NCBI RefSeq assembly: GCF_002019605.1
Contig: NZ_KV917368.1
Coordinates: 2,883,517-2,947,516 of the forward strand
Length of the DNA stretch: 64,000 nt
Reading direction: 5' to 3'
DNA from: Alkalihalobacterium alkalinitrilicum
Lineage (GTDB): Bacteria > Bacillota > Bacilli > Bacillales > Bacillaceae_F
The notes beneath the pieces were generated by a model. It saw only the letters and a program-made list of their open reading frames with translations, ran no database searches and was not told where the DNA came from. Made by a program: the position numbers and the translations under genes. Positions 5,641 through 59,366 of this stretch are shown piece by piece (the first letter of the stretch is position 1; each line of letters starts with the position of its first letter).

Positions 5641-5649
5641 AGAAAGTGA

Positions 5650-5685
5650 AAAGGATGAGGCTGGTCGCCTCATCCTTTTTTGTTT
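5650..5685 (+). terminator. Rho-independent terminator
   Basis: A perfect 12-bp stem (5650-5661 with 5667-5678, AAAGGATGAGGC/GCCTCATCCTTT), 5-nt loop and T-tract. It ends the small membrane-protein transcript and lies against the convergent YjcZ gene. Confidence 0.88.
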
Positions 5686-6995: not shown

Positions 6996-7028
6996 ACAGG
7001 TGAAACGATTGTTTCACCTGTTTTTTTA
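6996..7028 (+). terminator. Rho-independent terminator of prsA
   Basis: An 11-bp stem ACAGGTGAAAC/GTTTCACCTGT (6996-7006, 7011-7021) with a 4-nt loop and a run of T. Confidence 0.92.
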
Positions 7029-10994: not shown

Positions 10995-13961
10995 CTACGA
11001 CAATACCATCGTTGCCTCGAGGTCAAAAAGATCTTTGATCTGTTCGTGACAGGTGAAAAATAATACTTGATGCTTCTTTGCGACCTCTTTGATCACCCGA
11101 ATTGCACTTACTTTCCTTCCATCATCAAAATTCACCATAATATCATCTAATATGATTGGCATTGGAGAAGGTGCTTGGTACGCTAACGCAAGTGCAAGTC
11201 GAAGTGATAAATACAATTGTTCACCTGTTCCTTGACTCAACTCATCTGGTGTAAAGCGCATACCGTCAGATCGCTCAACAATAAAAGAACTTTCCGATAC
11301 AGGTGCAAATAAATTAACGTATTCTCGATTGGTCATTATTGAAAATAGTTCTTTCGCTTTTTGAATAACAACAGGCTGCCTTTCTGTTTCGTAGATTGAT
11401 TTCGCTTTATTTAAAATCAAATGACTTATACGGAATGTTGCCCATTCCTTAGCAACTGATTGAAACTCTTCCTTCTTTATTTCATATGTCTGTCTTAATT
11501 GAGAATGGTTATTCCCTGTTTCTAGCTGTTCTATTTCTTGTTCAATCCGCCCAATTTGGTTTTCGAGCAATGACTGTTCTGCTTCTGCTTGCTTTAATTG
11601 CTTAGTTAATGTTTGAAGTTCTTCTTCAATGCTGACGCTAGCCTGATCTAAATAAATTTTTACCTGCTCTTTGGTTAATGGTTCTAGTGTAAATTGTGCT
11701 TGTTGAGAACGGAGGATTAACAACTCCTTTTCAAGTGTTTGCCTTTCAGTTGCTACATCTGCAAAATAGAAAAACTCTTCTTCGTCTTTGGCATGAGCTT
11801 TCAATATCCAATTCGATCGTTCCTCTTGCAAATATTGAATTTTTCTTTTTAGTGTCTCAACTTCCGATGCAACCATCTTTATGTTCTTTTGAACTTCATT
11901 GAACTGAATCTTCTTTTGTTGTTCTCTCTCGACTGTTTCTGTAATTTTATGAACAAGAACAGATAAACTTCCAATCTGATCAATTTTCAGCTTAGCCGCT
12001 AATTGCTGTCCAATCTCATTAATCAGTTCCATTCGTTCATGAATTTCTTCTCGTCTCTTTTTATAGTAATTTTTATTATTCATATTTTGCTTCACTTCAA
12101 CTAAAACATCAAACAATTCTAGTTGATGTTCACAGCTTCCATAATGCACAAACTGGTGTTTATCACACCACAAAACTAATTGATTAACTATAAGTTGGAT
12201 TTCATTTTCACATGTTTCAATTTCTCCTACTAATAAATTATATTCCCTTTCCTCTTGCGTCCACTGTTTATTCCATACTTCTAGCTGATGTTCTGTTGCC
12301 ATATTCTCTTTGAGGTCTCGCTCTATCAAACCTATTTCTCTTTCAAGATCATCTGTTGTTTTTATCCCTTCTAGTTCTTTTTCATATTCTACTAGTTGCT
12401 GGTGGTGTTGCTTATTCTCTCTGCCTTTAGGTCTACCACTCACGTACATCATGATAATTGCAAATACAAACGTAAGTATGGAAGGAATCCACTGTTGTAT
12501 ATACAACAACCACCCACTAATTACGAGTAAAGCGATGGCTATAATTTTAAAAACTCTTGTGTTTCCATAATCGAGTGCGTCTTTTGACTGTCCATTGAGC
12601 CATTGGATTTTTTGTTCAAGTTCTTGTCTTCTAGACCGATCCGCTTTTGCCTGGTCGATTTGTTGTTGTAATTTCAGTTGATATTCACTAGATAAACATT
12701 CTGAAGTTATGTCTTTAAGCGTTTGTTTAGTTTGCTCTAGTTTTAATAATTTAGTTTTAAGCTCAATCTCTATTTGCTCTCTTTCATAGTCTGATTTTCT
12801 TTCTCTTTGAGTTAATTTTTTTAACTCTTCCTTTGCCGTTAAACTCGTTTGTGTTTGTAGGATTAAATCGTCATTCCACTCCTTACCTAACCTTCCTTTT
12901 TGGTCGATTATCAATTGCTCTAGTTTACGTAACTCCAGTTGTAAACTCGTTAATTCCTCTTTTAACCGTTCATATTCATATAACATTTCTTTTATTAATA
13001 CAGCTTGCTCTTTTATTTTTCCAAAATCAGGTCTCAATGTCAGTTCCTTTAACTGTTTCTTTAGCTCTGTCATTTTGACCTCTAAATCATTAAACTGTTC
13101 TTTAAGGGCTCGTTCTTTAGTAATACTATCTTTTACTTGATCAATCCCATGCAATGGAAAATGGTTTACTGACGGAAGTTGCTCTAATTGAGAAAGAACG
13201 CTTTTCTCTTTTCTATATAAAGGGTCCATAAGTATTAGTTTTTCTTGAATTTTCAGTTTATCTTTTAGGCCTGTAACGGTGTTATTCACACCTTGTTGTT
13301 GCTTTCTTAAGTTTATTCGTTGCGATAACAACTCATCATATTGTTTTAGTTGTCCTTCCATTTCCTTTAACTCATATCGAGTGACCTCTAACTGTTGAAG
13401 TTTTTCATTAAGTATTGGTTTTTTCCCACTTGGCTTAAATAGATCCTGTTGCCCTTTTTCTATCTTTTTTTCAAGTTCATTTAATGATCCTTTTCCCCAA
13501 ATACTTGCTCCATGTAAATAGCGGTTCAATTCATCTGTTTTCAGCTGCTCCATTTTTTGAAGGTCACTAGCGCTGAAGGAAAAAACACCTGTAAATAAAC
13601 CTTTATCCATTCCTCCTAACAATTGATTTAATGCCTCTTCTCCCCCTATCGTTCCATCCTCATAATAAATAATTGCTTTTCCACCGTTTTTTCCTTTTTG
13701 TCTTTCAATTGTAATTTCACTTAAACCGTTTATGTCTATAATTATCTGCCCACCATACTTCGTTCCTTGCTTCGGTTCATAGTGTGCACCAGCTTGAGCT
13801 CTTGTTGGAAATCCAAATAGGATCGTAGTAATAAACGTTTTTATTGTTGACTTTCCTTTTTCATTCTCACCAAAAATAACTTGTAAATTTGAAGAGAGGA
13901 GGTCAATTTGAATATCGTAAAATTTTCCGAAACCATAAATATGTAGTTTTTTTATATTCAA
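10995..13961 (-). CDS. yhaN: YhaN, SbcC/Rad50-like ATPase with membrane segments
   Basis: This SMC-type ATPase of about 988 residues pairs with the nuclease YhaO. Walker A GENEKGKST lies near residues 31-39. Long coiled coils follow, interrupted mid-protein by two hydrophobic helices (FKIIAIALLVISGWLLYI and SILTFVFAIIMMYV). The C-terminal half carries the signature LSQGTGEQLYLSLR and Walker B PIILDDIMVNFDD. The start is taken as TTG 13961, whose TTGA overlaps the yhaO stop and which lies 8 nt after AAAGGAG; GTG 13970 abuts the ribosome site. A DNA-processing role is inferred from family resemblance. Confidence 0.9.
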   Translation of the reverse strand: MNIKKLHIYGFGKFYDIQIDLLSSNLQVIFGENEKGKSTIKTFITTILFGFPTRAQAGAHYEPKQGTKYGGQIIIDINGLSEITIERQKGKNGGKAIIYYEDGTIGGEEALNQLLGGMDKGLFTGVFSFSASDLQKMEQLKTDELNRYLHGASIWGKGSLNELEKKIEKGQQDLFKPSGKKPILNEKLQQLEVTRYELKEMEGQLKQYDELLSQRINLRKQQQGVNNTVTGLKDKLKIQEKLILMDPLYRKEKSVLSQLEQLPSVNHFPLHGIDQVKDSITKERALKEQFNDLEVKMTELKKQLKELTLRPDFGKIKEQAVLIKEMLYEYERLKEELTSLQLELRKLEQLIIDQKGRLGKEWNDDLILQTQTSLTAKEELKKLTQRERKSDYEREQIEIELKTKLLKLEQTKQTLKDITSECLSSEYQLKLQQQIDQAKADRSRRQELEQKIQWLNGQSKDALDYGNTRVFKIIAIALLVISGWLLYIQQWIPSILTFVFAIIMMYVSGRPKGRENKQHHQQLVEYEKELEGIKTTDDLEREIGLIERDLKENMATEHQLEVWNKQWTQEEREYNLLVGEIETCENEIQLIVNQLVLWCDKHQFVHYGSCEHQLELFDVLVEVKQNMNNKNYYKKRREEIHERMELINEIGQQLAAKLKIDQIGSLSVLVHKITETVEREQQKKIQFNEVQKNIKMVASEVETLKRKIQYLQEERSNWILKAHAKDEEEFFYFADVATERQTLEKELLILRSQQAQFTLEPLTKEQVKIYLDQASVSIEEELQTLTKQLKQAEAEQSLLENQIGRIEQEIEQLETGNNHSQLRQTYEIKKEEFQSVAKEWATFRISHLILNKAKSIYETERQPVVIQKAKELFSIMTNREYVNLFAPVSESSFIVERSDGMRFTPDELSQGTGEQLYLSLRLALALAYQAPSPMPIILDDIMVNFDDGRKVSAIRVIKEVAKKHQVLFFTCHEQIKDLFDLEATMVLS

Positions 13962-15202
13962 GAACCCCACTCCTTTAACAATTCTTTTAAGATCAAATCT
14001 CTTCCGTCTTGAAGTAGTTTTTCATACTCATCATCATTCAATGGCTGTAAAAATTGCTTAGCTTTGCGATGTCCATATAATTCCTTTAAGACCTCTTTTA
14101 TATCTTCTGGAGAACTTTCGGCCAAGTGTTCAGTCACTCTTGTAATATCACCTAAGAAGTCTTCCTGCTGTAATAATTGCTGTATATCCCATTTCTTTTT
14201 TGTGTTATTTTCATATGAACTAATCCAAACGAACGTATTATTATAACCTTGATCGCTATTAACGTGTTCAATCCACTCATCCATTTGGACTTTTTCTTCT
14301 AATACTTCTGCAGCTGGTCCTTCACCAGAAAAATTCAGATGTAACATGTAGCTACCGTTTTTCATTCGTATTTCGTCGATGCGTTGGTCACAATATGTAA
14401 AAAACTGTTCTGCTGATGTAATTTTATTAATAGAAAGTTCAATTGTTTCCCAAATTAACGGTGCTGTCTCAATAAATTCGGTAGAAACTTCTTTTGTATC
14501 ATTTAATTCAACTAGCAAACACCCTTTTTTTCCTGTTTCTTTTCGATGTCTGCCTAGAATATTTCCAGAATAAAAAATGGTTGGTTTCAGTTTAGTCAAC
14601 TTGTGAATATGTCCTAATGCCCAATAATCAAACTCTTTTTCTTCCAACTCCGACCAATGAAACGGTGCATATGGATTGTGACCTGTAATGTTCTGTTCTT
14701 GGCCATGAAGCAATCCAATATGATAGTCTGCTCCATCGACTTTTTTATAATGATCGATTTTTCGTTCTAATACTTCTCTTTCCTGATAACTAAATCCGTA
14801 TAAATGAACTGAAGTTCCGTTACGATTCACCCATCGCTTACACTCCAATTCATTTGAAAAAACGTGGACGTTTTTCGGCCAAGTAATAGTCACCCAATCC
14901 CCACTAAGGTGATCATGATTCCCGTGAATGATAAACACAGGGATATCTCGTTGATCAAGTCGAGCAAATTCTTTTCGTAAAAAAAGTTGAGCTTTGAGAC
15001 TTCGGTTTTCATTATCATACAAATCCCCAGAAATAATAATAAAATCAACGTTATGTTCCAAAGCTATATCAATCATTTTTCGAAATGAGTTGAAAGAACT
15101 TTCATGTATTTGTTTTAATAACGACTCAGGCAAATGAGCCAAGCCTTTAAATGGACTATCTAGATGTAAATCTGCAGTATGAATAAAAAGCAAGGGTTTC
15201 AT
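13958..15202 (-). CDS. yhaO: YhaO, SbcD/Mre11-like metallophosphoesterase
   Basis: The 414-residue calcineurin-like nuclease has all metal-binding motifs in order: HTADLHLD (about 8-15), SGDLYD (about 59-64), GNHDH (about 95-99), LHGQ and GHIH (about 195-198). The C-terminal 170 residues form the capping and ATPase-contact region. It forms a two-gene operon with yhaN by a TTGA stop/start overlap, the arrangement of sbcD-sbcC and of B. subtilis yhaO-yhaN. Proposed activity: Mn-dependent DNA end processing. Confidence 0.9.
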   Translation of the reverse strand: MKPLLFIHTADLHLDSPFKGLAHLPESLLKQIHESSFNSFRKMIDIALEHNVDFIIISGDLYDNENRSLKAQLFLRKEFARLDQRDIPVFIIHGNHDHLSGDWVTITWPKNVHVFSNELECKRWVNRNGTSVHLYGFSYQEREVLERKIDHYKKVDGADYHIGLLHGQEQNITGHNPYAPFHWSELEEKEFDYWALGHIHKLTKLKPTIFYSGNILGRHRKETGKKGCLLVELNDTKEVSTEFIETAPLIWETIELSINKITSAEQFFTYCDQRIDEIRMKNGSYMLHLNFSGEGPAAEVLEEKVQMDEWIEHVNSDQGYNNTFVWISSYENNTKKKWDIQQLLQQEDFLGDITRVTEHLAESSPEDIKEVLKELYGHRKAKQFLQPLNDDEYEKLLQDGRDLILKELLKEWGS

Positions 15203-15502: not shown

Positions 15503-16261
15503 TTATGCTTTTAATTCGATTGACTTTTCTTTTCCGTATATAAAATAACTTTGTACAATCATAAAGACATTACCAACAACCCAATATAACGATAAAGCTG
15601 ATGGCATAGCAATTGCAGCCATTAAAATCATGGCAGGCATTATATAAATTGTGACTTGCATATTCTCTGGCAAATTACGCATCGTTAATTTACCTTGTAT
15701 CCAAGTAGTAAGGGCCGCAACAATCGGTAAGATATAAAGCGGGTCTGGACTACCAAGGTTAAACCATAAAAATGTATGTTTTGAAATTTCTTCTGTTCTC
15801 ATGATGGCAAAGTAAAAGGCCATCAATACTGGCATTTGGATAAAGAGTGGCAAACATCCTGCCATAGGATTAACACCGTATTTCTTATAAACACTTAACA
15901 TTTCCTTTTGAAACTTTTGTTGTTCTTTTGGATCCTTCATATTATAGCTACTTTTCAATGCGTCCATTTCAGGTTTAATGACTTGCATCGCTTTACTACT
16001 TCGACTTTGTTTTATCGTTAATGGTAAAATACTTAACCGAATAAAGAGTGTAACAAAAATAATGGATAGTCCGAAACTGCCATTAAATAAAGTCGCAACA
16101 AAGGTAATTAACCACGATAATGGATACACGAAATAATGATTCCATATTCCTGTAGATTCAACTGTGATTGGTTGCGTTGTCTGTGCTCCACAACTAGAAA
16201 GTAGCAACGCACACCCAATTACTAACAGGATGATACTATATTTATACATGATTGTTTTCAA
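15503..16261 (-). CDS. yidC: YidC/Oxa1-type membrane insertase (YqjG/YidC2-like)
   Basis: The 252-residue insertase places membrane proteins in the bilayer alone or with Sec. It has a lipoprotein signal peptide (lipobox LSSC near residue 24) and five membrane segments. A cytosolic hairpin carries [20 protein letters not shown], and the catalytic-groove arginine lies in [13 protein letters not shown] 16261 follows AAGGAGGG at 6 nt; the in-frame ATG is 12 nt further on, too far from that site. Its ribosome site is sequestered by a hairpin with the end of the upstream small gene, as for B. subtilis mifM-yqjG. It is therefore probably the inducible backup insertase. Confidence 0.9.
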
Positions 16262-16267
16262 TGAACA

Positions 16268-16309
16268 CCCTCCTTATTATTGAACGTATTAGATCAATAA
16301 TAAGAAAGA
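16268..16309 (-). promoter_or_regulatory. RNA hairpin sequestering the yidC Shine-Dalgarno sequence
   Basis: On the mRNA the end of the upstream reading frame, CUUAUUAUUGA (16294-16304), pairs perfectly over 11 bp with UCAAUAAUAAG (16273-16283), loop 10 nt. The stem extends with U-A, C-G and G-U pairs (to about 16309), so the whole AAGGAGGG (16268-16275) is paired. The left arm is the last four sense codons of the 93-codon gene. A ribosome held a few codons before the stop would open the stem and expose the yidC ribosome site. Confidence 0.75.
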
Positions 16310-16570
16310 GGCTGCCTCATCATCGCACTTTGAATTCCTATCACGAAAGTTCGGTATGTTTCTCTTAATAAAAATAAATGATTGGACGATGAGAAATGGT
16401 GAAAAAAAGTTGATCTTGTTTACATCTGGATCATGTTCGTTACCATAATACTTTTGCTGAAACTGCAAATACACTATTTTTTTCGATAATGCTGCTGTTA
16501 TATAAACCATCGAAAGTCCAAGTAATAACCAAAGAATTGGTATATCAAACGTTATTTCAAACACTCCCAT
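16289..16570 (-). CDS. mifM: MifM-like translation-arrest leader peptide (membrane-insertion monitor)
   Basis: The 93-residue product has one N-terminal membrane helix (about residues 9-30), a polar middle and a C-terminal stretch FRDRNSKCDDEAAS (75-88), followed by FLLLI. B. subtilis MifM (95 residues) is an N-terminally anchored peptide upstream of yqjG. As I recall it, its arrest region contains FRMNS and DEEDAGS; the order FR-NS-DE-A-S recurs here. In that system MifM stalls the ribosome when YidC activity is low, unfolding the hairpin over the yqjG ribosome site. All three elements (anchored peptide, acidic C-terminal motif, hairpin) are present here. AAAGGAGG stands before the ATG. Arrest itself is inferred. 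Confidence 0.7.
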   Translation of the reverse strand: MGVFEITFDIPILWLLLGLSMVYITAALSKKIVYLQFQQKYYGNEHDPDVNKINFFSPFLIVQSFIFIKRNIPNFRDRNSKCDDEAASFLLLI

Positions 16571-16600: not shown

Positions 16601-16628
16601 ATTATAGCACTTAATGATTTAACTTCAA
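16601..16628 (-). promoter_or_regulatory. Predicted sigma-A promoter of mifM-yidC
   Basis: TTGAAG (16623-16628), 16-nt spacer, TATAAT (16601-16606) on the minus strand, 31 nt before the mifM start. Confidence 0.6.
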
Positions 16629-16666: not shown

Positions 16667-17935
16667 TTACTGCTTTTCCTTTTTGGACAACTGCAATGCT
16701 CGTTTAAAGTCTTTTAACGAAGATGACTTTCCGTACATTAAAACTCCTCCTCGGTATACACGGGCACCAGCCCAAGCCATTAAAACAATCGTTGCAAGGA
16801 GAATTCCTACACCGAGTAGCACTTCCCATAAAGGAAGAGACAACATACCTACACGTAAAAACATAATCATTGGTGCAAAAAATGGAATAAACGATGTAAT
16901 CGTAACAATCTTTGCTTCAGGATTAGTTAATCCAAACATCGCAATAAAAAATGCAGCTACGATTAATAAGATCATCGGTGCAACCATCTGATTAACGTCT
17001 TCAATTCGACTAACAAGGGAACCTAACATAGCCGAAATCGTTGCATATAGAAAATAACCAAGAATAAAAAATAAAAATGCATAGCCAATTAAATGAAGTG
17101 GAAGACCTTGCCCGATTATCATTTCTCCTAGTTCAGGACCAAACGCATCTGTAGACAGCCGTTGCCTTAGAGAAAGGACACCTACTAAGAAAATAAGAGC
17201 ATACTGAGTGAGACCAAGTAATGCAATTCCAAAAATCTTCCCGAACATTTGTTGAATTGGAGAAGAACTCGAGATTAAGATTTCCATTACTCTTGATGAC
17301 TTTTCAATGGCGATTTCCGTAGCAATCATATTCCCAAACATGAGGACTGAAAAATAAATGATAAATAGTAAAATATAGACAAAAATTCTCGCTTGATTGA
17401 GTTCTGTTTCGGTCTTCGCTGTTTCTGCAATTGCAATTCTTTCAAATTCAATTGGTGCATAAATACTGGCCACTTCTTCTGGTTGTAAATTCAGATTTGA
17501 TGTAACCCTTTCCTCTTTCACTTGTTGAAGAGCCTGCTCTAATTGCCAAGGAAGCATTTGCTCAACTACTGTCATCGCTTGATATGTTCCTTGTGGTAAC
17601 CCTGAAGCACTTAAGGAAAGTTCTATCATACCTTCTACTTCCCCATCTTTTATTAACGAAATAGCTTCAGCTGCTGCATCCTGAAACTCTCTTAGCTCAA
17701 TTGTTGGATTTATAATCGTCATATTAGATTCTAACGCTTCATAGAGTTCCCCTGTTTCATCCAAAACTAAAACAACACTAGTTTCACTTTGTTCCTGGTC
17801 AAAAACTGATATAATTCGGTCAAAGTTCATAAACCCTAAAATAAAAAGTAAAGTGATTGCTGTTGAAATTAGAAATGATTTCGACTTTAGTTTCGATAAA
17901 TATGTATGTACTAAAACGATAAAAAACTTATTCAT
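16667..17935 (-). CDS. yhaP: YhaP, ABC exporter permease (NatB-type)
   Basis: The 422-residue permease has one N-terminal membrane helix (about 20-37), a large extracytoplasmic domain of about 140 residues, and five to six further helices in the C-terminal half. This is the ABC2/NatB layout. MFGNMIATEIAIEKSSRVME is the conserved cytosolic coupling segment. It overlaps yhaQ by 8 nt, so it is co-translated. The substrate is unknown; NatB relatives export Na+ or peptides. Confidence 0.87.
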   Translation of the reverse strand: MNKFFIVLVHTYLSKLKSKSFLISTAITLLFILGFMNFDRIISVFDQEQSETSVVLVLDETGELYEALESNMTIINPTIELREFQDAAAEAISLIKDGEVEGMIELSLSASGLPQGTYQAMTVVEQMLPWQLEQALQQVKEERVTSNLNLQPEEVASIYAPIEFERIAIAETAKTETELNQARIFVYILLFIIYFSVLMFGNMIATEIAIEKSSRVMEILISSSSPIQQMFGKIFGIALLGLTQYALIFLVGVLSLRQRLSTDAFGPELGEMIIGQGLPLHLIGYAFLFFILGYFLYATISAMLGSLVSRIEDVNQMVAPMILLIVAAFFIAMFGLTNPEAKIVTITSFIPFFAPMIMFLRVGMLSLPLWEVLLGVGILLATIVLMAWAGARVYRGGVLMYGKSSSLKDFKRALQLSKKEKQ

Positions 17936-18827
17936 AATGTGCCCCCACCTTTTCTAGGAAAATATCATGTAAGGATGGGTCTTCAATTTCAAACTTTCGA
18001 ACAAAACCTTTAGTAGCTAACACTTGAAACAACTGGTGTGCCGTATCTTCATTAGCAATTTGAACTACTGCCCCTTCTTTTGTATGTTTCACCTTAAGAA
18101 CCCCTGCAAATTGGTCAAGAAAATCTAAAGGAAAATCAGCTCGTATTACGACATTCATTTTGCCGAAAGATTTTTTCACATCCCTCAAACGTCCTTCCAC
18201 TACTGGAGTACCGTGATGCAAAATACAAAGTTGTTCACATAATTCTTCTACATGCTCCATTCGATGACTTGAAAAAACAATTGTTGTTCCTGATTTATTA
18301 AGGTCTAGTACTGCTTCTTTTAATAATTCTACATTTACAGGGTCAAGCCCACTAAAAGGTTCGTCTAGAATAAGAAGTTCGGGTCGGTGTATGACTGAGG
18401 CAATAAACTGAATCTTTTGTTGATTACCTTTTGATAATTCTTCTATTAGCTTGTTTGCATTTTCTGGCACTTTAAAACGTTCTAGCCACTCGTGCATCTC
18501 TGTTAAAATATCTTTTTTTTCCATACCTCTTAATCTACCTAGATAGACTAATTGCTCAGCCACTTTCAATTTTGGATATAGCCCTCTCTCTTCTGGCAAA
18601 TACCCTATTAATTGGCTTGTTTTATAGTTAATTTTTTCATTACTCCATGTAATACACCCAGACGTTGGTTCTAGTAGACTTAGTATCATCCGAAATGTTG
18701 TTGTTTTACCAGCTCCATTCGCTCCTAACATACCAAACATTTGTCCTTTTTCAATATTTAAGTTTAATTGATTGACAGCTTTAGTTTTTCCAAATTTTTT
18801 TGTTAAATTCTCTATGTTTAAACTCAT
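17928..18827 (-). CDS. yhaQ: YhaQ, ABC exporter ATP-binding protein
   Basis: The 299-residue ATPase has Walker A GANGAGKTTT (about 37-46), signature LSKGNQQK (about 130-137), Walker B LLILDEPFSGLDP and the H-loop SSHRMEH. The C-terminal 80 residues are a NatA-type accessory region. ATG 18827 follows TTGGAGG; the longer frame upstream lacks a ribosome site. It is the first gene of the yhaQ-yhaP pair. Confidence 0.92.
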   Translation of the reverse strand: MSLNIENLTKKFGKTKAVNQLNLNIEKGQMFGMLGANGAGKTTTFRMILSLLEPTSGCITWSNEKINYKTSQLIGYLPEERGLYPKLKVAEQLVYLGRLRGMEKKDILTEMHEWLERFKVPENANKLIEELSKGNQQKIQFIASVIHRPELLILDEPFSGLDPVNVELLKEAVLDLNKSGTTIVFSSHRMEHVEELCEQLCILHHGTPVVEGRLRDVKKSFGKMNVVIRADFPLDFLDQFAGVLKVKHTKEGAVVQIANEDTAHQLFQVLATKGFVRKFEIEDPSLHDIFLEKVGAHYE

Positions 18828-19008
18828 TCTAAACCTCCAATAATACTGATTTATTTTATATACGTTCCAATAAGCGTTTTGTTTCAAATTTTGGGAATTC
18901 CGTTCGTTAAATCATGATATTTAATATAAAACTTCTAGTTTATCAAAACAACTTAGCGCTAATAAAGTCAAACAATCCTAAAAAGCACTATTCTCTAGTA
19001 TGTTACAC

Positions 19009-19514: not shown

Positions 19515-19547
19515 AAAATGAGGCTGATAAATGATCAGCCTCATTTT
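19515..19547. terminator. Bidirectional terminator between yhzD and yhaX
   Basis: A perfect 14-bp stem AAAATGAGGCTGAT/ATCAGCCTCATTTT (19515-19528, 19534-19547) with a 5-nt loop lies between convergent genes. Confidence 0.9.
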
Positions 19548-33215: not shown

Positions 33216-33432
33216 ATAAAGTGAAACTTCCATCAGTAAGGGGTTTTCCTCTTCTCTAACTGATGGTTAGTTGAGGCCCACACGATGTGGGTCACACAGA
33301 CGTTGCCACAGGACGTAGCGCATTTAGTCTGTGTTCATTTATTTATTACTGGCAGTTTATCCCACACTTATCCTTCTTTAATGCCTCGAAGTCTTGACGT
33401 GGGTGTATTACTGCCAATTGTTGCGGGATAAA
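33216..33432 (+). repeat. Dispersed structured repeat, full copy B
   Basis: About 217 bp matching 59,158-59,366 almost throughout. Four hairpins can be drawn: CATCAGT/ACTGATG; CCCACA/TGTGGG; ACAGAC/GTCTGT enclosing GCCAC/GTAGC; and ACTGGCAG/CTGCCAAT closing over CCCACAC/GTGGGTGT. It begins with ATAAAGTGAAACTTCCATCA and ends GCGGGATAAA, 5 nt from the yngHB stop codon. It sits inside the leucine-degradation operon. No reading frame. Confidence 0.85.
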
Positions 33433-53689: not shown

Positions 53690-53820
53690 ATTAGTATCCT
53701 CCGTACTTAGAGTTTTTCCAAGTCTCCTTAGACAATCTTATTATATATTTTACATTAGATTATTAATTTAAGTAACAATTTTCCTTTAATTTGTTAATTT
53801 GCTCTAATAAAAACCCAAAA

Positions 53821-53864
53821 AAAGTATAACCACTACCTGATAGCAAGTGGTTATACTTTTTTTT
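53821..53864. terminator. Terminator of spoVR
   Basis: A perfect 14-bp stem AAAGTATAACCACT/AGTGGTTATACTTT (53821-53834, 53846-53859) with A- and T-runs on either side, so active in both directions. Confidence 0.9.
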
Positions 53865-59053: not shown

Positions 59054-59090
59054 AGGCTGCCATAAGGGAGTTAATCCCTTATGGCAGCCT
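59054..59090. terminator. Perfect 16-bp hairpin, possible terminator
   Basis: AGGCTGCCATAAGGGA pairs fully with TCCCTTATGGCAGCCT (59054-59069, 59075-59090), 5-nt loop. T-runs are weak on both sides. It lies in a 485-nt gap between the FixH-like gene and yhcX, which otherwise holds the dispersed repeat. Confidence 0.65.
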
Positions 59091-59157: not shown

Positions 59158-59366
59158 GATAAAAGTGAAACTTCCATCAGTGAGGGGTTTTCCTCTTCCC
59201 CCACTGATGCTTAGTTGAGGCCCACACGATGTGGGTTACATTGCCACAGGACGTGGCGCATTTAGTCCGTGTTCATTTAGTTACTAGCAGTTTATCTCCC
59301 ACTTATCCTCTTTGATTTCTCGAAGTCTTGAAGTGGGGGTAATACTGCCAGTTGTTGCGGGATAAA
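59158..59366 (+). repeat. Dispersed structured repeat, full copy C
   Basis: About 209 bp closely matching copy B, from GATAAAAGTGAAACTTCC to GTTGTTGCGGGATAAA. Stems CATCAGTGAGGGG/CCCCCACTGATG, CCCACA/TGTGGG and GCCAC/GTGGC are better paired than in B; the outer ACAGAC/GTCTGT stem is degraded. It ends 19 nt from the yhcX stop. No reading frame. Confidence 0.85.

Follow-up and report, generated by a model that had tools for sequence, protein, structure and literature searches.

A small upstream open reading frame (uORF) that precedes the second membrane insertase gene, yidC2, very probably encodes a monitoring substrate of the MifM family, with a stem that sequesters the Shine-Dalgarno (SD) sequence and controls the second insertase; the arrest, the stall codons, the release, and the induction are steps that we infer. 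The locus lies in the window, that is, the whole 64,000-nucleotide stretch of Alkalihalobacterium alkalinitrilicum DNA that was analyzed. A MifM-like logic of arrest and stem had been put forward in a preliminary description of this DNA, and it agrees with the association with YidC2, with the stem and its compensatory change, and with the opening of the stem at the predicted codon. It also fits the acidic N-tail, the spacing between helix and acids, and the L22 loop of the host. The features of the locus are as follows.

16289-16570, minus strand: mifM-like uORF, 93 codons from ATG 16570 (91 from GTG 16564); stop codon TAA 16289-16291
15503-16261, minus strand: yidC2, second membrane insertase, 252 amino acids, TTG start, the target gene; 60KD_IMP, E 2.5e-51
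16601-16628, minus strand: probable promoter of the mifM-yidC2 unit, TTGAAG, 16 nt, and a TG-extended TATAAT, from a consensus scan
16487-16564, minus strand: acidic N-tail (E5 and D9; E-x3-D) and single transmembrane helix (about residues 10-28), from the sequence; helix ends approximate
16349-16366, minus strand: KRNIPN, residues 69-74, the form of the (R/K)K-I-P motif in the window
16316-16324, minus strand: acidic patch D83-D84-E85, which lines up with DEED-AGS of Bacillus subtilis MifM
16294-16304, minus strand: 5' arm of the 11-bp stem, codons F89-I93; CCTC at 16308-16311 adds to the stem
16273-16283, minus strand: 3' arm of the 11-bp stem, running into the SD
16269-16275, minus strand: SD of yidC2 (AAGGAGG), sequestered

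Gene order and the uORF peptide

The stop codon of the uORF is located 27 nt upstream of the yidC2 start on the same strand. The most likely start of yidC2 is TTG 16261, 7 nt from its own SD, and in a congener (L005) the gene starts with an ATG 6 nt from the SD. An ABC-transporter pair (16667-18887) lies upstream of mifM-yidC2, and yidC2 is followed by genes of the Metallophos and AAA_27 families (10995-15202), which we take to be yhaO-like and yhaN-like; all are on the minus strand. The consensus promoter scan of the window returned 9 sites against 8.9 expected and is thus weak evidence on its own; a TATAAT is present at about the same position upstream of mifM-yidC2 in two congeners (L004 and L005). 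The best match of the yidC2 product in the PDB was "Membrane protein insertase YidC 2" (3wo7/3wo6), presumably the crystallized protein of Halalkalibacterium halodurans, and this species also carries a mifM-like uORF (L076). The genome encodes two YidC proteins with 56% identity between them, YidC2 and a SpoIIIJ-like one, the gene for the latter adjoining genes that read as rnpA and jag. Elsewhere in the window, two Bacillaceae-1 RNAs (RF01690) are found on the minus strand at 33277-33343 (79.2 bits) and 59221-59281 (50.2 bits).

The uORF peptide, whose C-terminal end reads FRDRNSKCDDEAASFLLLI, contains a single strongly hydrophobic segment at about residues 10-28, as judged by eye. The single-helix peptide of 93 residues in the preliminary description is therefore present, with a length of perhaps 91. 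The SD of the uORF, AAAGGAGG, is 2 nt from ATG 16570 and 8 nt from the in-frame GTG 16564, and because of this spacing the GTG start is preferred, so that the peptide may have 91 residues; a congener (L005) and L007 keep both starts, which makes this choice a preference and not a proof. Searches against Pfam and NCBIfam assigned the peptide to no family, the best E values (0.16 and 0.14) falling far short of the cut-off. In comparisons of the window with two congeners, dN values were 0.29 and 0.31 and dS values were 1.07 and 1.43; the uORF is a coding gene under purifying selection. Judging from its sequence, the transmembrane helix probably lies N-out/C-in. E85 is the predicted first codon to stall in the P-site, followed by A86, A87, and S88.

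A hairpin that sequesters the SD of yidC2

A perfect 11-bp inverted repeat, CTTATTATTGA/TCAATAATAAG, with a loop of 10 nt was found at 16273-16283 / 16294-16304, so the perfect hairpin described earlier as reaching the SD of yidC2 does exist. In mRNA sense, its 5' arm begins with the last base of codon F89, covers L90-L92, and ends with the first base of I93, and the earlier statement that this arm is formed by the codons of the last four residues was right to within one base. The 3' arm includes the AAG of the SD (16275-16269); in the minimum free energy (MFE) fold, the other four SD bases, GAGG, are paired with CCTC (16311-16308) beyond a bulge of 3 nt. The extension of the stem that had been described thus covers the rest of the SD, but beyond the bulge it consists of Watson-Crick pairs and not of a run of wobble pairs.

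The fold of the 91-nt mRNA segment had an energy of -24.9 kcal/mol, compared with -14.4 +/- 2.7 kcal/mol for shuffles (z -3.8), and none of 200 shuffles was as good. The cost of opening the SD was 11.3 kcal/mol against 4.3 +/- 1.9 kcal/mol, a value reached by none of 60 shuffles. The window has six perfect hairpins with 11 bp or more and loops of 3-14 nt, and none was found in any of 10 dinucleotide shuffles. The other ones, of 11-18 bp, are at 5649-5679, 6996-7021, 19515-19547, 53817-53863, and 59054-59090. A reading of the yidC2 hairpin as an intrinsic terminator was rejected, as the stem is rich in A+T, lacks a T-run, and is absent from the output of the terminator scan.

Conservation and compensatory change of the stem

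The collection of uORFs comprised 92 unique members, namely, the window and 91 further candidates. Two of them (L188 and L219) run 83-104 nt beyond the yidC start as found, and these starts are possibly mis-set. Three related loci of one genus (L048, L059, and L209) also differ from the others, their uORFs extending 11-52 nt past the yidC2 start as found.

Among the 62 loci with a GGAGG that were folded from the last acid onward, the stem overlapped the last codons of the uORF in all 62; the table of base pairs across these loci was derived from MFE folds and hence leans towards pairing. Compensatory change was examined with an arm-swap test on 55 loci, in which the 11 nt before GGAGG were paired with the upstream region of their own locus or with those of the other loci. 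The mean pairing energy was -4.97 kcal/mol with the own region and -2.42 kcal/mol with those of other loci, and the own mean was reached by none of 2,000 permutations. The own arm ranked first of 55 in 10 loci and among the top five in 22 (median rank, 9); in the window it ranked third of 55. The arm-swap test took the place of a structure-blind MAFFT alignment of 37 of 50 reference loci, in which the 5' arms were not lined up and RNAalifold returned 0 consensus pairs. Covariation of the hairpin in relatives, which had been named as a check, was supported by the permutations but not by the structure-blind alignment.

The cost of opening the SD at single loci was computed for 45 of 47 loci, with L048 and L059 omitted and near-duplicates kept. 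For 27 of the 45 loci it ranked within the top 5% of the shuffles, and for the other 18, for example, L051, L104, L105, L113, and L139, it did not. L063 and L064 have a good stem, but it ends short of the SD found. Across the 57 mifM-yidC2 loci with peptides less than 85% alike, the mean opening cost was 8.6 kcal/mol, compared with 2.4 kcal/mol for the SpoIIIJ loci (51 of the 52 classified by rnpA or jag). Altogether, the results of computed folding support a family-wide stem that sequesters the SD of yidC2 and shows compensatory change.

Computed opening of the stem depends on the ribosome position

The cost of freeing the SD was next computed as a function of the ribosome position, counting the mRNA as hidden to a point 16 nt downstream of the first base in the P-site codon; this 16-nt footprint is an assumption. 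The scan covered the 64 of the 92 loci in which the uORF does not overlap yidC2, the SD has at least 4 nt, and the peptides are less than 90% alike, and the 62 loci folded above are a subset of these. With the P-site 4-8 codons before the last acid, the mean cost was 8.5-9.7 kcal/mol. On approaching the last acid it fell to 7.7, 6.1, and 4.6 kcal/mol, then to 2.9 kcal/mol on the last acid itself and to about 2 kcal/mol beyond it. The shuffles drifted from 3.9 through 3.3 to 2.6 kcal/mol with no step. Ahead of the fall, the cost stands at about 9 kcal/mol for the 64 loci and at 3.7 kcal/mol for shuffles. The half-drop occurred between -5 and +1 codons from the last acid in 62 of the 64 loci, most often at -2; the exceptions were L186, in which it fell outside this range, and L063, which showed no drop. 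On the last acid the cost was below 4 kcal/mol in 50 loci and not in the remaining 14. In the window, the cost was 10.7, 6.7, 2.4, and 1.7 kcal/mol at D83, D84, E85, and A86, respectively. In B. subtilis MifM, the P-sites of the stalled ribosome are described in the passages of PMC4423224 as D89, which is the last acid of DEED, followed by A90, G91, and S92. Because the cost has fallen by the last acid and the first stall in B. subtilis is at D89, the stems of the family would on average be open at this position.

Conserved features of the peptide family

The motifs of the peptides were examined in 68 relatives with peptides of up to 120 amino acids that are less than 90% alike, overlaps with yidC2 being allowed. 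Residues 2-11 hold two or three acids in all 68. Near the C-terminus, the best 4-residue window has three or four acids in 65 of the 68. A K[IVKRT]P motif is present in 60, of which 57 have it 5-10 residues before the acids; the window, which reads N-I-P, is among the eight relatives that lack it. In a 44-row alignment made from 47 loci (omitting L048, L059, and L138), K, P, and D each reach at least 90% in the columns that correspond to residues 71, 73, and 83 of the window peptide, which itself reads N, P, and D at these positions. The set of 57 loci was used for the N-tail and the helix, which were located by hydropathy and charge. [ED]x3[ED] occurs within residues 2-12 in 53 of the 57, and in 54 the N-tail carries more negative charge than the 15 residues that follow the helix. 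The distance from the helix, taken from the hydropathy window, to the last acid had a median of 57 residues (interquartile range, 55-58; n = 57). Conservation is thus found in the N-tail, the K-x-P, and the acidic patch and is poor in the middle of the peptide.

A divergent subgroup is formed by the Fictibacillus-type uORFs (L126, L128, L183-L187, and L189), which lack K-x-P as defined and end in PDDKEG...SLFA. L126 and L128 are named Fictibacillus, and the stem is kept in both.

The uORF occurs with YidC2

The YidC loci of named genomes were limited to the best 80 of at least 190 confirmed loci, so that near YidCs alone are covered. Among these 80, the uORF was present at all 28 non-SpoIIIJ loci, and the filter found it at none of the 52 SpoIIIJ loci, defined as those beside rnpA or jag. 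The filter identified 27 of the 28 uORFs, and that of L117, whose start is mis-set, was recognized by inspection and profile. In a tree of 85 YidC sequences, the 32 uORF-bearing proteins were split from the 53 SpoIIIJ proteins by a single branch (support, 98/94), and the product of yidC2 in the window grouped with the uORF-bearing YidCs and not with SpoIIIJ.

In the congener G003, whose assembly has a listed contamination of 8%, what is left of yidC2 beside yhaO is a remnant of 28 codons with 89% identity (L151, G003:C55:3000-7500, about 1992-2075). The uORF, the ABC-transporter pair, and the rest of yidC2 were not found in the L151 stretch; this loss indicates that the mifM-yidC2 unit can be lost as a whole.

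A search with the window peptide gave matches in 7 of 101 genomes, including its own. A 7-row profile matched 83 of 397 genomes of the order at an E value of ≤0.1, the weaker rows often being partial or containing stops. A 44-row profile matched 102 of the 397 genomes at an E value of ≤0.01, and the weakest of its matches (from about 6e-4 up) were mostly partial or stop-broken. One genome, G224, has two mifM-like matches on contigs C14 and C25 (L227 and L228), one of them with an in-frame TGA.

The neighborhoods of 21 YidC2 loci were compared. yhaO- and yhaN-like genes flank mifM-yidC2 in Alkalihalobacterium (L070 and L071), Salibacterium (L091), and Bacillus sp. FJAT-44742 (L089), and L072, L074-L077, L083, and L090 have other neighbors in common with the window. 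No neighbors of the window were found at the Priestia, Sutcliffiella, Fictibacillus, Anoxybacillus, Metabacillus, and Brevibacillus loci or at L104, which gave only distant ABC-ATPase matches (27-30% identity). The neighborhood of mifM-yqjG in B. subtilis presumably differs from that of the window as well. As mifM-yidC2 sits in several neighborhoods among the 21 loci compared, the genomic place was rejected as the mark of a new class.

Relation to B. subtilis MifM and other known systems

When the family profile was compared with 177,635 PDB sequences, B. subtilis MifM (3J9W chain AZ, 95 amino acids) ranked first with an E value of 0.45, which is not significant alone. MifM, of which residues 1-4 were missing and to which an M was added, outscored all 3,990 scored shuffles of itself (4,000 were made). 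A comparison of the family with MifM by hhalign gave a probability of 40% and aligned only 20 N-terminal columns. B. subtilis MifM (YqzJ; PDB 3J9W and 7QGU) is likewise encoded by a uORF of a secondary yidC (yqjG), with 95 codons compared with 93 or 91 in the window. Both peptides have an acidic N-tail (E-x3-D) followed by one helix, and near the C-terminus both have acids, small residues, and leucines (DEED-AGS-LLL in B. subtilis and DDE-AAS-FLLLI in the window), with four acids in MifM and three in the window. In both, a stem buries the SD of yidC2, as published for B. subtilis and by computed folding for the window. The tunnel loop of L22 in the host, FRPRAM, with F85 and M90, is identical to that of B. 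subtilis L22 in 3J9W; the passages of PMC4423224 tie F85 and M90 of L22 to MifM arrest, M90 favoring it. As stated in part of PMC8920935, the acidic N-tail of MifM and the positive charge in the groove of SpoIIIJ are both required for the insertion of MifM in B. subtilis.

Conservation of the residues needed for arrest in B. subtilis is only partial. Of R69, I70, W73, I74, M80, and N81, the 68 relatives matched zero to three at shifts of -3 to +3, thereby indicating that the full B. subtilis arrest code is not shared, and the complete pattern R69 I70 xx W73 I74 xxxxx M80 N81 was absent from all 68. Two or more of the six residues were matched in 33 of the 68, compared with about 18% for shuffled C-termini. 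The window peptide matched three (I70, I74, and N81) only at a shift of +2 and one when aligned on the last acid. Counted from the last acid, the columns of R75 and K76 of B. subtilis hold R or K in 39 and 40 of the 68, respectively. At a distance of about 7-10 residues ahead of the acids, most family members read (R/K)K-x-P and B. subtilis MifM reads RKVF. A search of 397 genomes for the pattern NDEEDAG gave one match, in G269, which is away from the mifM-like place of that genome and was taken as chance. The earlier observation that the peptide is unlike MifM was thus justified for the mid-tunnel residues, which differ in good part.

According to passages of PMC10987492, the MifM cluster of Fujiwara et al. 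(2024) comprises 572 sequences, taken from 592 Firmicutes genomes and selected by a uORF before yidC, an N-terminal localization signal, and negative charge at residues 70-100, and the window peptide fits this description by inspection (D83, D84, and E85). The published broad MifM family is not defined by the B. subtilis arrest residues. The same passages give a median spacing of 54 between helix and arrest by the authors' own measure, compared with 57 to the last acid in our family, the two measures not being identical (PMC10987492). For the suggestion that the window peptide belongs to a distinct class on account of its place in the yha region, the several neighborhoods and the 572-sequence cluster argue against it, and only the differing mid-tunnel residues speak in its favor. 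ApcA has a RAPP-like ending, and the window peptide has none. According to part of PMC7897499, ApcA is also encoded by a uORF of a secondary yidC and has an N-terminal helix, but it belongs to another, actinobacterial lineage. CliM, as described in passages of PMC13183943, is also a YidC-monitoring uORF product with an N-terminal transmembrane segment and a stem that hides the start region of yidC2; it is clostridial (uC_KYxIW), and its arrest motif K-Y-x-I-W is not in the window peptide by eye. K-x-P is not mentioned for MifM in the passages of PMC10987492, PMC7897499, PMC6037786, PMC13183943, PMC4423224, PMC6827917, and PMC8920935 that were considered. No publication was retrieved by searches that combined MifM with pseudofirmus, yidC with MifM and alkaliphilic, or Alkalihalobacterium with YidC.

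An alternative origin of the same mechanism has to be considered here, in which the arrest peptide arose independently and converged on the MifM design, with (R/K)K-I-P and the acidic patch as a code of its own. The B. subtilis arrest residues are largely absent and the similarity to MifM is weak, and the passages of PMC7897499 report no notable mutual similarity among the arrest sequences of SecM, MifM, and VemP, so that such peptides can arise apart. This origin does not account for the same place, the similar length, the E-x3-D N-tail, the distance of the RK pair from the last acid, and the acidic patch, nor for the rank of MifM in the PDB search, its result against shuffles, and the excess of relatives with at least two of the six residues. 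We consider it improbable, although it shares its mechanism with the MifM-family reading, differs from it in kinship alone, and overlaps with it in odds.

Proposed mechanism and implications

In the proposed mechanism, a working YidC would insert the helix of the uORF peptide, with its acidic N-tail, in the N-out/C-in orientation, and the pull on the nascent chain would cancel any arrest. The ribosome would then reach the stop codon, the stem would re-form, and yidC2 would be shut. When insertion capacity is low, the hydrophobic run, the basic-I-P stretch, and the acidic patch may hold the chain in the exit tunnel, and the ribosome would stall with E85, or A86, A87, or S88, in the P-site. Its leading edge would cover the 5' arm of the stem, leaving the SD free, and the second insertase would be made.

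Simple translational coupling, in which a passing ribosome opens the stem and aids yidC2 initiation with no nascent-chain arrest, would by itself also lead to the overlap of the stem with the last codons in 62 of 62 loci. It leaves unexplained the conserved acidic patch at the codon where the stem opens, the conserved K-x-P stretch, the narrow spacing between helix and acids, the acidic N-tail, and the tie to YidC2 only, and we regard it as very improbable. It is scarcely credible that the uORF product is a small membrane protein serving some function of its own and that the stem is an RNA element with no connection to it, either repressive or temperature-sensitive: purifying selection on a coding gene would be expected of such a protein, but its middle is poorly conserved while the N-tail, the K-x-P, and the acidic patch are kept, the stem is tied to the acidic patch, and the uORF was lost together with yidC2 in G003.

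Within the MifM-family reading, we tentatively propose that most members use a code other than that of B. subtilis, with the basic-K-I-P stretch near the L4/L22 constriction and the acidic patch at the peptidyl transferase center. B. subtilis would then be the odd member, and the acidic patch would double as a ruler, setting the stalled ribosome at the position at which the SD stem has to open. The three of six B. subtilis residues kept by the window in one register lower the odds of a different mid-tunnel code.

Monitoring substrates of this kind have already been cataloged, as the passages of PMC10987492 indicate, and the window peptide is ordinary in kind. MifM is the model for the sensing of membrane-insertion capacity; in the literature excerpts considered, the cryo-EM and mutational studies are based on the peptide of B. 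subtilis. Across the window and the 91 further candidates, the parts that are kept are the acidic N-tail, the helix spacing, the acidic patch, and the distance from the patch to the SD stem. Of the mid-tunnel residues on which B. subtilis MifM depends, only some are retained, and these peptides thus offer a direct test of whether multiple tunnel grips occur within one family.
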